From NCBI RefSeq assembly GCF_005576615.1, contig NZ_CP040330.1:186001-250000 (forward strand): a DNA stretch of 64,000 nt. The letters are read 5' to 3'. Source of the DNA: Natrinema versiforme (lineage in GTDB: Archaea > Halobacteriota > Halobacteria > Halobacteriales > Natrialbaceae). The notes under the pieces were generated by a model. The model worked only from the letters and a program-made list of their open reading frames with translations. It did no database searches and was not told the DNA's origin. Below, in pieces: positions 27,399-31,268 of this stretch. The translations under genes and the position numbers were made by a program. The number at the start of each line of letters is the position of its first letter. The first letter of the stretch is position 1.

Positions 27399-28163
27399 TT
27401 ACGTTCCGATTCGGCGCGGAATCGAGCCCGTCATCGACAGTTCGTCGGCGTAGTGGACGACCGGATCGCCGGTCGGCGTCGGCAGGCCGTTGGCCTCGAA
27501 CAGCGTGTTCTCGTGGATCGTCACCGCGGCCGGCTGGAGCGGCCACGGATCGTGGGCGATCTCGCCGGTCAGGACGCCGTCGGCTTCCGGAGCGTAGAAC
27601 CGGCGACGAGCCGTGAGCCAGTGCTCGAGCGTGTTCGGCTCGGCGGTGAAGACCTCGCCGTTCGGGCAGTAGGTCGCAGCGAACCGGGCGGCGGTATCGC
27701 CCGCCGACTCACTCGATCGGCGCTCGCTTTCGAAGGCGACGTGATTATCCTCGGTGGCTCCGACGCGCATCTTGGCGCGATAGACGGGTAATCTGGTCGT
27801 TCGACCGACGCTCGTCGCGACGAGCGAGTTCCCGATGTCGATGCTGAAGAAAAACAGGCCGGGATCGCCGCGATACCGGACGTAGGTCCGGACGTTGAGT
27901 TCGGGAAAGGCGAGCCGGGTGATCGACGGCGTCCCCCGGAGCCCTACGTTCGTGAGCACGAACGGGAGCACGCTCAGCCACGCGCGGCCGTCTCGAGTCT
28001 CGAGGGTCACCTGTCCGGGGACGTGGGGCCGGAGGTCGTCGGGATCGACCGGCCAGTGGACGAACAACCCGTCTCGCCATATCATCGAGGCGACGTGTGG
28101 TGCTTTCGGCGACGACCCGTCTGCGAACGACCATCGGAAGGGATCCGTACGTTGTGCGTTCAT
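27399..28163 (-). CDS. DUF2071 (YqjF-like) family protein
   Basis: 254 residues. The family signature is evident: IWRDGLFVHWPVDPDDLRPH at the start, then WLSVLPFVLTNVGLRGTP, FPELNVRTYVRYRGDPGLFFFS and a beta-rich C-terminal half. Members are soluble beta-barrel-like proteins of unknown biochemical role, often in stress or metabolic islands. It lies directly downstream of the opsin gene on the same strand, but a TATA box (CTATTTTATAC, 28206-28216) about 45 nt upstream indicates its own transcript. No link with opsin signalling can be claimed. Confidence 0.8.
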   Translation of the reverse strand: MNAQRTDPFRWSFADGSSPKAPHVASMIWRDGLFVHWPVDPDDLRPHVPGQVTLETRDGRAWLSVLPFVLTNVGLRGTPSITRLAFPELNVRTYVRYRGDPGLFFFSIDIGNSLVATSVGRTTRLPVYRAKMRVGATEDNHVAFESERRSSESAGDTAARFAATYCPNGEVFTAEPNTLEHWLTARRRFYAPEADGVLTGEIAHDPWPLQPAAVTIHENTLFEANGLPTPTGDPVVHYADELSMTGSIPRRIGT

Positions 28164-28257: not shown

Positions 28258-29019
28258 TCAGTCCGCCGGATCGACCGCGGTCCCGTCGGTCTTCTCGAGG
28301 GTGACGCCGTCCGAGCCGTCGTCTCCATCGGACGACTCGGTCGCCGCGATCACCTGATCGACGGCGTCGGTTGCCCGGAGTAACAGGACGCCGAACCCGA
28401 TCCGGGTGAGGGCGTCGATGTACGCCGTGACGAAGATTCCGCCGAAGGCGTCGAGCAGTCCCAGTCCCTGCCGCGAGACGAATCCCATGACCAGGTAGAA
28501 GACCCAGAGCAACAGGAGCAGGTTCCGGAGCTTCCCGAAGAGGAGCACTCGTTCGCCGCTCTGCTGGCCGGAGCGTGTCGTAATCGGCCAGATCATCAGG
28601 TACATGAGAGCCCCGAGCGAGGCGAACGTGACGCCCATCGCGGCCGTACTCAACGACCCCTCGATGAAATACCGGACGGCCGTCGAGCCGACCCACGTCA
28701 CGGTCAGGACGGAGACCGCGGCCAATTGCCGACGGGTGGCTCCGGCGATTCGGCCGGCGACGACGACCATGATGACCGTCGCGACCAGATAGTCGATGTA
28801 TCGGGTCATCGGAATCGGCTGTCCTCCCGCCGTCGTGATTCGGAACAGCTCGAGCGACATCCCGACGTTCGAGAGCGCGAGCGTCCCGGTGACGATCGGC
28901 GCCGGAAGGTAGTACCGCCGTTTCCCCGCCGGCATCCGGGCGATCCACGCGAGGAAGCCGACGGTCGCAGCCGCCATCGCGTAGAACGCGAAGCGGTAGA
29001 GTTGGAGTTCGGGGATCAT
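28258..29019 (-). CDS. opsin homologue lacking the retinal-binding lysine (sensory rhodopsin II-like)
   Basis: 253 residues, seven hydrophobic helices. The closest recognisable relative is sensory rhodopsin II, with which it aligns at an offset of +1 to the Natronomonas numbering. Helix C reads TRYIDYL, keeping Arg73 and the counterion Asp76 (SRII Asp75). Helix F reads LLWVFYLVMG, keeping Trp172 and Tyr175. Helix G reads AYIDALTRIGFG, keeping Tyr200, Asp202 and Thr205, but the Schiff-base lysine (SRII Lys205) is Arg206 (codon CGG, minus strand 28404-28402). Other pocket residues differ too: Trp76 to Tyr77, Pro175 to Leu176, Trp178 to Gly179. The start overlaps the transducer stop by 4 nt. A covalent retinal chromophore cannot form, so light sensing is doubtful. 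A role as a membrane subunit of the transducer is inference. Confidence 0.9.
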   Translation of the reverse strand: MIPELQLYRFAFYAMAAATVGFLAWIARMPAGKRRYYLPAPIVTGTLALSNVGMSLELFRITTAGGQPIPMTRYIDYLVATVIMVVVAGRIAGATRRQLAAVSVLTVTWVGSTAVRYFIEGSLSTAAMGVTFASLGALMYLMIWPITTRSGQQSGERVLLFGKLRNLLLLLWVFYLVMGFVSRQGLGLLDAFGGIFVTAYIDALTRIGFGVLLLRATDAVDQVIAATESSDGDDGSDGVTLEKTDGTAVDPAD

Positions 29020-31268
29020 CGCGCGTCACCTCCCTGTCCGACGGGAGTCGTAGTCGCACCGGTCGGCGTCGCCGCGACGGTGAACTCGTCGACGGCGTCG
29101 GCCAGATCCGCGGCCCGCTCGTCGAGTCGGGTCGCCTCGTCGGAGACGTCCGTAATCGTCGCGGTCGTCTCCTCGGCGGCCGCCGCGACCTGCTGGGCCT
29201 GCGACGTCGTCTCGTCGGCGACGCTCGCGACGTCCTGGACGATCGTCGCCAACTCCTCCGCGGAGCTGGCCTGTTCGTCGGTCGCCTGATCGATCTCCTG
29301 GACGCCGGCCGTTACCTGTTCGATCTCCGTCTCGATCCGTTCGAGTTTGTCCGTGAGGGAGTCGACCCGGTCGGTCGCCGACCCGATCGTCGATTCGGTC
29401 TCCTCGATCTGCGTCGCGCTCTTCGTCGCCCGCTGCTGTATCGATTCGATCATTGTTTCGACGTCTTCGACTGCCGTCTGGGTCTGCTCTGCGAGTTCCT
29501 TGACCTCGTCGGCGACGGCCTGGAACCCACCGCTCTCGCTCGAGGCGCTCTCGGATCGCGCGGACTCGATGGCCGCGTTCAACGCGAGCATGTTGGTCTG
29601 GCCGGCGATCTCGTCGATCAGTTCGACGATCTCTTGGATCTGTTCGGCCTCCTCGTCCAGCGAGCGGATCGTCTCCGCGAGCGCTTCCGTCCGTTCGCTC
29701 GCCGCGTGCATCTCCGCGGTCGTCTCCTCGGCCGCCCGCTTCCCGTCCGTGGCCAGTTCGCCGACCTGTCCGGTCTGTTCGGCGATGGTACTCGTCGCGG
29801 CAGCGACCTCCTCGACGGTCGCCGACATCTCCTTGACCTCGGTCGTCGCGACCGACAGGTCCTCGGCCTGCTTCGAGGACCCGTCCGAAATCTCCTGGAC
29901 CGACGAACTGACCTCCTCGCTCGCTCGTCGGATCTCGTCGGAACTGCTCTGGACCTCGGTACTCGTCCGGGCGACCTCCGCCGAGATCGCCTTGACCTGC
30001 CCGACCGTCTCCTCCAGATCGGCGATCATCTCGTTGAACGCCTCGGCGATCGAGACCATCGCCTCGTGGTCCGTCTCGGGCTCGAGGCGGTTCTCGAGGT
30101 CGCCGTCGGCACACGCCGACATGACCTCGCTGTAGCGTTCGGCCTCGGCCTCGAGTTTACGGTTGTACTTCTCGGTCTGCTGTTGGGCCTCGCGAGCGCG
30201 TTCGCGTTCCTTCTCGAGATCGGAGAGCGTCTCCATGAGCGAGTTCCGCATCGAGTCGAAGGAGCCGTAGAGCGTCCCGACCTCGTCGATCCGGTCCGTC
30301 TCGAGGTCGACCTCGAGGTCGCCGTTCCCCATCCGCTCGGCCTTGGACGCGAGCCGACGGAGGTTCAACGAGATGTTGCCGCCGAGAACGACGCCGACGA
30401 GCCCGAGATGGAGGATGAAGATCAGCAGTAGTGCAAGCACCGACGAGGTCGCGGTCCCCTGTGGCCCGTAGACGGCCGCCGCGGTATCGTAGGTCGTGAC
30501 CGTCAGCGACTCGCCGCCGCTGTCGATCGTCGCCGCCGTCCCCGCGAACTCCGTCTCCGAGCCGTCGGGGGTGCCGGTCGCGACCCCGTCCGAATCCGGT
30601 GTGACCGCGGCGAGGACGGCGTCGTCGCCGACCGGGGCCTCCTCGCCGACCGCCGCGATCGTCTCGCCGTCGGCGTTCGTGACGACCGTTCGACGCGAGT
30701 CGCCGTCGGTCTCGAGAACGGACGCGAACGCGCTCGTGGGGGCCGAAACGGCGACGTATCGCTCGTCTTCGCCCTCGACGCTCGAGACGAACGAGAGCAC
30801 CGAGTCCCCGCTCCCGACCGCGTCGTGGGTGCGGGGGCCGTCGGTCGCGCCCTGCACACCGGCCGTCTCGAAGAAGTTCCTGTCGACCGCGCCGTCCGCG
30901 CTGCTCGCGCGTATCTCGCCGTCGCCGTCGAGATAGTGAATTTCAGCGATCCGATCCCCGCGAGTCGACTGGGCCGTCGCGAGTCGATCGCTGATCTCGT
31001 CGTCCGTTCCCGCTCGGACGGTCGCGTCCGCGGCGAGCCCGTTCGCCGTTTCGGCCGTCGTCTCGAGCCAGTTCGCTGCGACGTCGCTCCGGTCGTCGGT
31101 GCGATCGCTGAAGTGGTCTTCCGCGGCCGGGCCGACCGTGCCCGAGACGTGTCCCAAGAAGAGCGCGGAGACGGCGATCGTCATCACGGCGACCAGCAGG
31201 AAAATGAGACCGATCTTTACACTGTACGTTTCTCTGAGCCGATCAGGGAGATAGTCCTCGAGTGCCAT
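29016..31268 (-). CDS. methyl-accepting transducer (HtrII-like) paired with the opsin
   Basis: 750 residues. TM1 is at about 18-40 (IGLIFLLVAVMTIAVSALFL). A large acidic extracellular domain covers about 41-275, with Cache-like pattern IAEIHYLDGDGEIRASSADG. TM2 is at about 276-297, followed by a HAMP domain (RRLASKAERMGNGDLEVDLE), a second HAMP-like segment near 380-420 and the MCP signalling hairpin, whose tip is DEIAGQTNMLALNAAIESAR and FQAVADEVKELAEQTQ. Such transducers control CheA/CheY and flagellar switching. The start at 31268 begins MALEDYLPDR; the open frame upstream is not acidic. Gene order transducer-then-opsin with ATGA overlap is that of sensory-rhodopsin operons. Glutamate/glutamine-rich methylation regions are present. 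Confidence 0.93.
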   Translation of the reverse strand: MALEDYLPDRLRETYSVKIGLIFLLVAVMTIAVSALFLGHVSGTVGPAAEDHFSDRTDDRSDVAANWLETTAETANGLAADATVRAGTDDEISDRLATAQSTRGDRIAEIHYLDGDGEIRASSADGAVDRNFFETAGVQGATDGPRTHDAVGSGDSVLSFVSSVEGEDERYVAVSAPTSAFASVLETDGDSRRTVVTNADGETIAAVGEEAPVGDDAVLAAVTPDSDGVATGTPDGSETEFAGTAATIDSGGESLTVTTYDTAAAVYGPQGTATSSVLALLLIFILHLGLVGVVLGGNISLNLRRLASKAERMGNGDLEVDLETDRIDEVGTLYGSFDSMRNSLMETLSDLEKERERAREAQQQTEKYNRKLEAEAERYSEVMSACADGDLENRLEPETDHEAMVSIAEAFNEMIADLEETVGQVKAISAEVARTSTEVQSSSDEIRRASEEVSSSVQEISDGSSKQAEDLSVATTEVKEMSATVEEVAAATSTIAEQTGQVGELATDGKRAAEETTAEMHAASERTEALAETIRSLDEEAEQIQEIVELIDEIAGQTNMLALNAAIESARSESASSESGGFQAVADEVKELAEQTQTAVEDVETMIESIQQRATKSATQIEETESTIGSATDRVDSLTDKLERIETEIEQVTAGVQEIDQATDEQASSAEELATIVQDVASVADETTSQAQQVAAAAEETTATITDVSDEATRLDERAADLADAVDEFTVAATPTGATTTPVGQGGDAR

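Follow-up and report, generated by a model that had tools for sequence, protein, structure and literature searches.

What does a microbial rhodopsin do once it has lost its Schiff-base lysine, and why is such a protein encoded beside a chemotaxis transducer? The question is raised by an opsin gene in the window, which is the whole stretch of 64,000 nucleotides of Natrinema versiforme DNA analysed here. Of the 170 haloarchaeal opsins surveyed by Becker et al. 2016, 48 (nearly 30%) lack the lysine; these opsin-related proteins (ORPs) were divided into two groups (PMC4915679). In group A, which occurs mostly in Halorubrum, the lysine is replaced by arginine, and a HAMP/MCP transducer gene is adjacent in 15 of 16 cases. 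Group B has leucine or another hydrophobic residue at the site and an adjacent transducer gene in 17 of 32 cases (PMC4915679). Transcription was seen for eight of nine ORPs, two ORPs that were expressed formed no retinal pigment, and a non-light sensory function was proposed for the family (PMC4915679). The sequence-only reading of the window held that, to its knowledge, no lysine-less opsin had been described in a haloarchaeal transducer operon. This remark was wrong, because such proteins, including the arginine-bearing group A, were published in 2016 (PMC4915679). The kind of protein is already known, and the interpretation given in that reading matches the one of Becker et al. Our literature search found no paper naming the stimulus of any ORP. 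The evidence as a whole is best explained if the ORP encoded in the window is a retinal-free receptor subunit of its transducer, which we consider likely.

The product of the gene is assigned by Pfam to Bac_rhodopsin (E = 1.2e-16). In a PDB sequence search its best match is the sensory rhodopsin II (SRII) of N. pharaonis (E 1.7e-16), the Schiff-base lysine K205 of which aligns to Arg206. The translation agrees with the open reading frame and the helix G motif YIDALTRIGFG given in the sequence-only reading. The AlphaFold2 model of the ORP, calculated with a 129-sequence alignment, has a pLDDT of 93.8, and its best fold matches in the PDB are SRII/HtrII complexes (Foldseek TMt 0.88–0.92); a prediction from 15 close orthologues was poor, with a pLDDT of 49. 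A search of the genome with Bac_rhodopsin (PF01036) detected a single opsin gene, that of the ORP. The four-nucleotide overlap ATGA (29016–29019) joins it to an upstream gene on the same strand that encodes a transducer (Htr) with HAMP and MCPsignal domains, in agreement with the earlier assignment of the opsin to a transducer operon. The start of the Htr gene was placed at the ATG that matches the orthologue alignment; the listed open reading frame starts at TTG 31418. The features of the locus are summarized in Table 1.

Table 1. Positions of the ORP gene, its neighbours and selected codons and domains in the window.
Feature	Position	Strand	Basis or conservation
DUF2071 protein gene, downstream of ORP in 23/23 orthologous loci	27399..28163	(-)	Pfam, gene-order comparison
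ORP gene (253 aa) for a type-1 opsin without the lysine, Arg subclade of group B	28258..29019	(-)	Pfam, PDB search, tree
Arg206 codon CGG at Schiff-base lysine position (SRII K205)	28402..28404	(-)	Arg in 23/23 orthologues
Asp202 codon (SRII D201)	28414..28416	(-)	invariant in clade
Tyr200 codon (SRII Y199, hydrogen-bonds HtrII N74)	28420..28422	(-)	Tyr in 130/130 ORPs
Asp190 codon (SRII T189, contacts HtrII E43/S62)	28450..28452	(-)	Asp in 22/23
Asp76 codon (SRII D75 counterion position)	28792..28794	(-)	clade: Asp 18 / Glu 5
Arg73 codon (SRII R72)	28801..28803	(-)	invariant in clade
Transducer (Htr) gene: TM1, extracellular domain, TM2, HAMP, MCP signalling domain	29016..31268	(-)	Pfam HAMP + MCPsignal
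MCP signalling domain of transducer	29220..29753	(-)	Pfam
Transducer His at HtrII N74 position	30408..30410	(-)	His in Natrinema, Asn in Haloterrigena relatives
Transducer extracellular domain, ~220 aa, between TM1 and TM2	30468..31133	(-)	orthologue alignment

A search for orthologues among 60 relatives identified 14 from the same genus, and a wider search added eight from two related genera. The 14 same-genus orthologues are full length, share 55–78% identity, and contain no stops. Together with the window copy, the 22 orthologues, each from a separate genome, form a clade of 23 members, hereafter B-Arg. All 23 have arginine at the lysine site, an intact frame, and an adjacent Htr gene. A contig search with the single protein as the query gave no match, and one with an alignment as the query gave 10 named loci; the named relatives with an orthologue are Natrinema salsiterrestre, N. 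ejinorense, N. gelatinilyticum, and Haloterrigena salina. The gene order Htr-ORP-DUF2071 is common to all 23 loci. LeuS is located upstream of the three genes wherever the flank extends that far, and an MFS gene is located downstream in many loci.

The residue alignment to SRII confirms the replacement of lysine by Arg206, which had been read from the CGG codon, and the additional pocket changes W76 to Y77, P175 to L176, and W178 to G179, as well as the retention of the equivalents of D75, Y174, Y199, D201, and T204. In SRII numbering, which is used below for alignment positions, W76, P175, W178, and G112 are all replaced in the clade, and V108 is changed to tryptophan in every member. The two ends of the pocket differ in conservation. 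At the Schiff-base end, residues 72, 76, 201, and 205 are invariant and residue 75 is Asp or Glu. At the ionone end, most residues (109, 112, 127, and 130) are variable.

The binding of SRII to HtrII is mediated by helices F and G and includes hydrogen bonds between Y199 and N74 and between T189 and E43/S62 (PMC3274258). Tyr199 is conserved in all 130 ORPs, and 101 of them have Asp at position 189. The residue that corresponds to HtrII N74 was measured in 99 distinct ORP transducers, all of which have Asn or His, and in 35 canonical transducers, of which 15 have Asn and the others Ser, Gly, or Thr. Within B-Arg, the FG loop and helix F of the opsin are the most conserved, followed by helices B and G, and helices D and E are the least conserved. 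The TM1 and TM2-HAMP segments of Htr are homologous to those of NpHtrII (E = 2.6e-27) and are separated by about 216 more residues. The retinal-free seven-helix ORP would use its helices F and G to dock to the transmembrane segments of Htr, which is encoded in the same apparent operon. A conformational change of the ORP would then be transmitted to the HAMP domain, the MCP domain, and a Che kinase.

The extracellular domain of Htr, which has no match in Pfam even at E = 10, is 61–78% conserved within the clade, comparable to the ORP. It is missing from all 13 group A transducers measured and from 22 of 28 transducers of the rest of group B; some canonical transducers carry a domain of similar length. 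Where the domain is missing, the ORP is thus the only evident input to the transducer. The B-Arg transducer has its own conserved extracellular domain, and thus the B-Arg complex probably receives two inputs, one from the ORP and one from this domain. The same domain allows a different role for the opsin, that of a structural or regulatory partner that affects the assembly, stability, or gain of the transducer and is not itself a sensor, with the ligand recognized by the extracellular domain. Such a role agrees with the presence of the domain in the clade and its ORP-like degree of conservation. It also agrees with the variability of the hydrophobic pocket positions 109, 112, 127, and 130, because of which no single ligand pocket is evident. 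However, group A ORPs and the majority of the remaining group B ORPs have no extracellular domain beside them that could be the sensor, and a scaffold would not obviously need the charged core formed by residues 72, 75, 201, and 205, which is conserved in the ORP. A purely auxiliary function is therefore conceivable but on the unlikely side.

The phylogenetic position of the clade was determined from NpSRII and 181 further opsin sequences, most of which come from a set of 392 genomes of the order. Trees were built without columns 75, 76, and 205; one contains 159 rows, and a second, more careful one contains 89 rows. The ORPs are separated from the lysine-bearing opsins with support of 100 in the 159-row tree and 100/100 in the 89-row tree, a placement that the sequence-only reading had left to alignment and tree building. 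B-Arg is one clade (100/100) within group B (96, and 100/93 in the careful tree), and group A is one separate clade (100/100) with arginine in all members. In having arginine in 23 of 23 members, B-Arg deviates from the leucine or hydrophobic residue published for group B. It has the arginine of group A in common with that group, but neither its placement nor its loss of R72 and change of W76 to Asp. Because B-Arg is located inside group B and yet has arginine, arginine occurs in both groups, contrary to the published description of group B. It is improbable that the clade belongs to group A of Becker et al., which would make arginine the marker of a single lineage. Both have the arginine, and a single Arg clade was not strictly rejected by the AU test (p = 0.07), but the careful tree places B-Arg inside group B, apart from group A. 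Furthermore, R72, Y76, and G178 are characteristic of group B, whereas group A proteins mostly do not have R72 and mostly have Asp76. With B-Arg inside group B, arginine may be the ancestral state of ORPs that was lost later in most of group B, or it may have arisen twice. Haloterrigena, which carries B-Arg (for example, H. salina), is included in the group tree of Becker et al., and therefore some B-Arg members were probably in their set.

Group B also includes small lineages in which the lysine is replaced by His, Thr, or Val. The ORPs with histidine include L042, L045, L049, L056, and L064, and for one of these, from Halorientalis marina (L056), the transducer gene is located downstream instead of upstream. 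Thr or Val occupies the site in two ORPs that branch early in group B (L061 and L016), both from the metagenome-assembled genome Halobacteriales archaeon QS_1_68_20.

The residue at position 205 is associated with an acid in helix C. Among the 182 aligned rows, Asp or Glu at position 75 or 76 accompanies arginine in 71 of 72 sequences, lysine in 49 of 52, and histidine in three of seven. It accompanies a non-ionizable residue (Leu, Phe, Val, Ile, Ala, Met, or Thr) in none of 51, of which 49 have Gly at position 75. Many group A proteins carry the acid at position 76, not 75; Becker et al. list the change of W76 to Asp for group A and refer in their text to neither a counterion nor a salt bridge (PMC4915679). 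The association of Arg205 with the acid corresponds to only one or two independent evolutionary contrasts on the tree, too few for a statistical test. Moreover, Asp or Glu at position 75 is also the ancestral state, and a retained acid is therefore less telling than a newly gained one. Nevertheless, the pattern is suggestive of an Arg-acid pair that substitutes for the protonated Schiff base together with its counterion. According to the title of Spudich et al. 1997, cited in PMC5292967, SRII signals constitutively once the salt bridge between the protonated Schiff base and Asp73 is disrupted; an Arg-acid pair would therefore be a natural switch. Arg206 may form a permanent interhelical ion pair with Asp76, probably with the participation of Arg73 and Asp202, and the breaking of this pair by a ligand, proton, or voltage would induce the same helix movement as light does in SRII. 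We put forward this ion pair and its trigger tentatively. It is more speculative still that the arginine and the helix C acid are a hard-wired form of the Schiff base/counterion switch, by which an ancient photoreceptor was turned into a chemical, proton, or voltage receptor that triggers a similar transducer.

The ORP could still be a light sensor if retinal were bound non-covalently or if another chromophore, such as an apocarotenoid, were used. The equivalents of D75, R72, Y174, and D201 from the photoreceptor core are kept, and an alternate chromophore is, according to Becker et al., an untested possibility for ORPs (PMC4915679). Nonetheless, the ORP contains no substitute lysine inside the retinal pocket: its only lysines are K33 in a loop, K163 at the cytoplasmic end of helix F, and K243 in the tail, which removes a concern attached to the sequence-only reading. 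The replacement of W76, P175, W178, and G112, the tryptophan at position 108, and the failure of two family members to form a pigment with retinal (PMC4915679) also argue against light sensing. Among 29 genomes of the genus, brp (PF15461) is present in all 19 with a lysine opsin and in none of the 10 without, which comprise eight ORP-only genomes, including that of the window, and two genomes without an opsin. The two-domain crtY has the same distribution. As the window genome lacks brp and crtY, it cannot synthesize retinal by the known route, and it encodes no other opsin. The absence of the two genes from the ORP-only genomes of the genus extends the eight ORP-only species without crtY and brp that were reported in 2016 (PMC4915679). 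Light sensing is thus highly improbable, and we infer that the ORP senses something other than light. Failure to bind retinal has been seen experimentally in other members of the ORP family, and in B-Arg the retinal-free state is predicted from the sequence.

The window genome also encodes a short single-domain protein that matches the lycopene cyclase (CarR) domain model, at G000:C2:1225280-1225519 (-). The short CarR-domain protein is encoded in all genomes of the genus, with or without crtY, by a gene distinct from crtY.

The arginine codon is CGG in 15 members of the clade, CGA in six, and CGC in two, and the dN/dS of the closest orthologue pairs is 0.15–0.44. The ORP gene is under purifying selection. 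Since the 22 further orthologues all have arginine, encoded by three different codons, Arg206 is due neither to chance nor to error. A sequencing error at this codon, or a sensory rhodopsin that lost its lysine recently and is decaying into a pseudogene, had nothing in its favour beyond the initial view of a single sequence, and both are rejected as next to impossible given the arginine, written with three synonymous codons, in all 23 orthologues, the lack of internal stops, dN/dS well below 1, and the conserved gene order. The proposal of the sequence-only reading that the signalling surface was kept and the chromophore released, leaving a light-independent receptor subunit, is supported by the arginine in 23 of 23 members and by the ORP-only genomes without brp and crtY. 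It also fits Y199 and its Asn or His partner on the transducer, the conservation of helices F and G, and the purifying selection.

The output of the complex may differ among the genomes. The che cluster of the window genome (L196 5582-14841) encodes CheW, CheY, CheB, CheA, two CheC-like proteins, and CheD, and archaellins are present. CheF (PF04283), which is known to connect CheY to the archaellum, was found in the H. volcanii control and in none of the 29 Natrinema genomes, several of which have archaellins; either CheF is divergent in this genus or CheY is connected to the archaellum by other means. An archaellin match is absent from six of the 15 ORP genomes (G011, G015, G020, G022, G023, and G028), all of which keep the ORP-transducer operon and a CheA. 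Because of these six genomes and the lack of a detectable CheF, the output need not be swimming, which hints at a non-swimming output in the archaellin-less ORP genomes. The CheA frame of the window genome (L196:7999-11829 (-)) encodes 1277 amino acids, of which about 600 separate the P2 domain from the dimerisation domain, and is very acidic overall, with about 30% Asp and Glu.

The arginine-bearing subclade of group B, the Arg-acid association, the conservation on both sides of the docking interface, and the possible dual-input transducer are new here. B-Arg is a good place to find the stimulus of an ORP because it offers a single opsin gene in a genome without the retinal-synthesis genes, one linked transducer, and, in the ORP, a fixed charge pair accessible to mutation, and the SRII/HtrII structure can guide the design. 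Should opsins be able to act as chemoreceptors, the function of the type-1 family would be nearer to that of GPCRs than assumed.

Type-1 opsins without the retinal lysine also include Rh-noK of betaproteobacteria and most freshwater FArhodopsins (PMC10308929). Unlike the window ORP, Rh-noK and FArhodopsins have no chemotaxis transducer. We know of no MCP partner of the fungal lysine-less opsins. The fungal proteins lost the lysine independently and are unrelated to the haloarchaeal clade in the tree of Becker et al. (PMC4915679). The SRII/HtrII system of N. pharaonis is the closest solved fold and resembles the window system in the order of the transducer and opsin genes, the homologous TM1, TM2, and HAMP segments, the retained Y199 and D75, and the transducer contact residues, which are kept in the cognate Htr. 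The window ORP differs from SRII in the missing Schiff-base lysine, the altered retinal pocket, and the additional extracellular domain of its transducer. The greatest similarity is to the ORPs of Becker et al. 2016, which are likewise type-1 opsin homologues without the K216/K205 lysine, form a clade apart from the lysine opsins, and have an altered pocket (W178 to Ala or Gly, among others) with Y199 kept. ORPs are often adjacent to a transducer gene, and in the window clade this is so in 23 of 23 loci. Compared with the published group B, B-Arg is distinguished by the arginine together with Asp or Glu at position 75, the retained Y174, and a transducer with a conserved extracellular domain.
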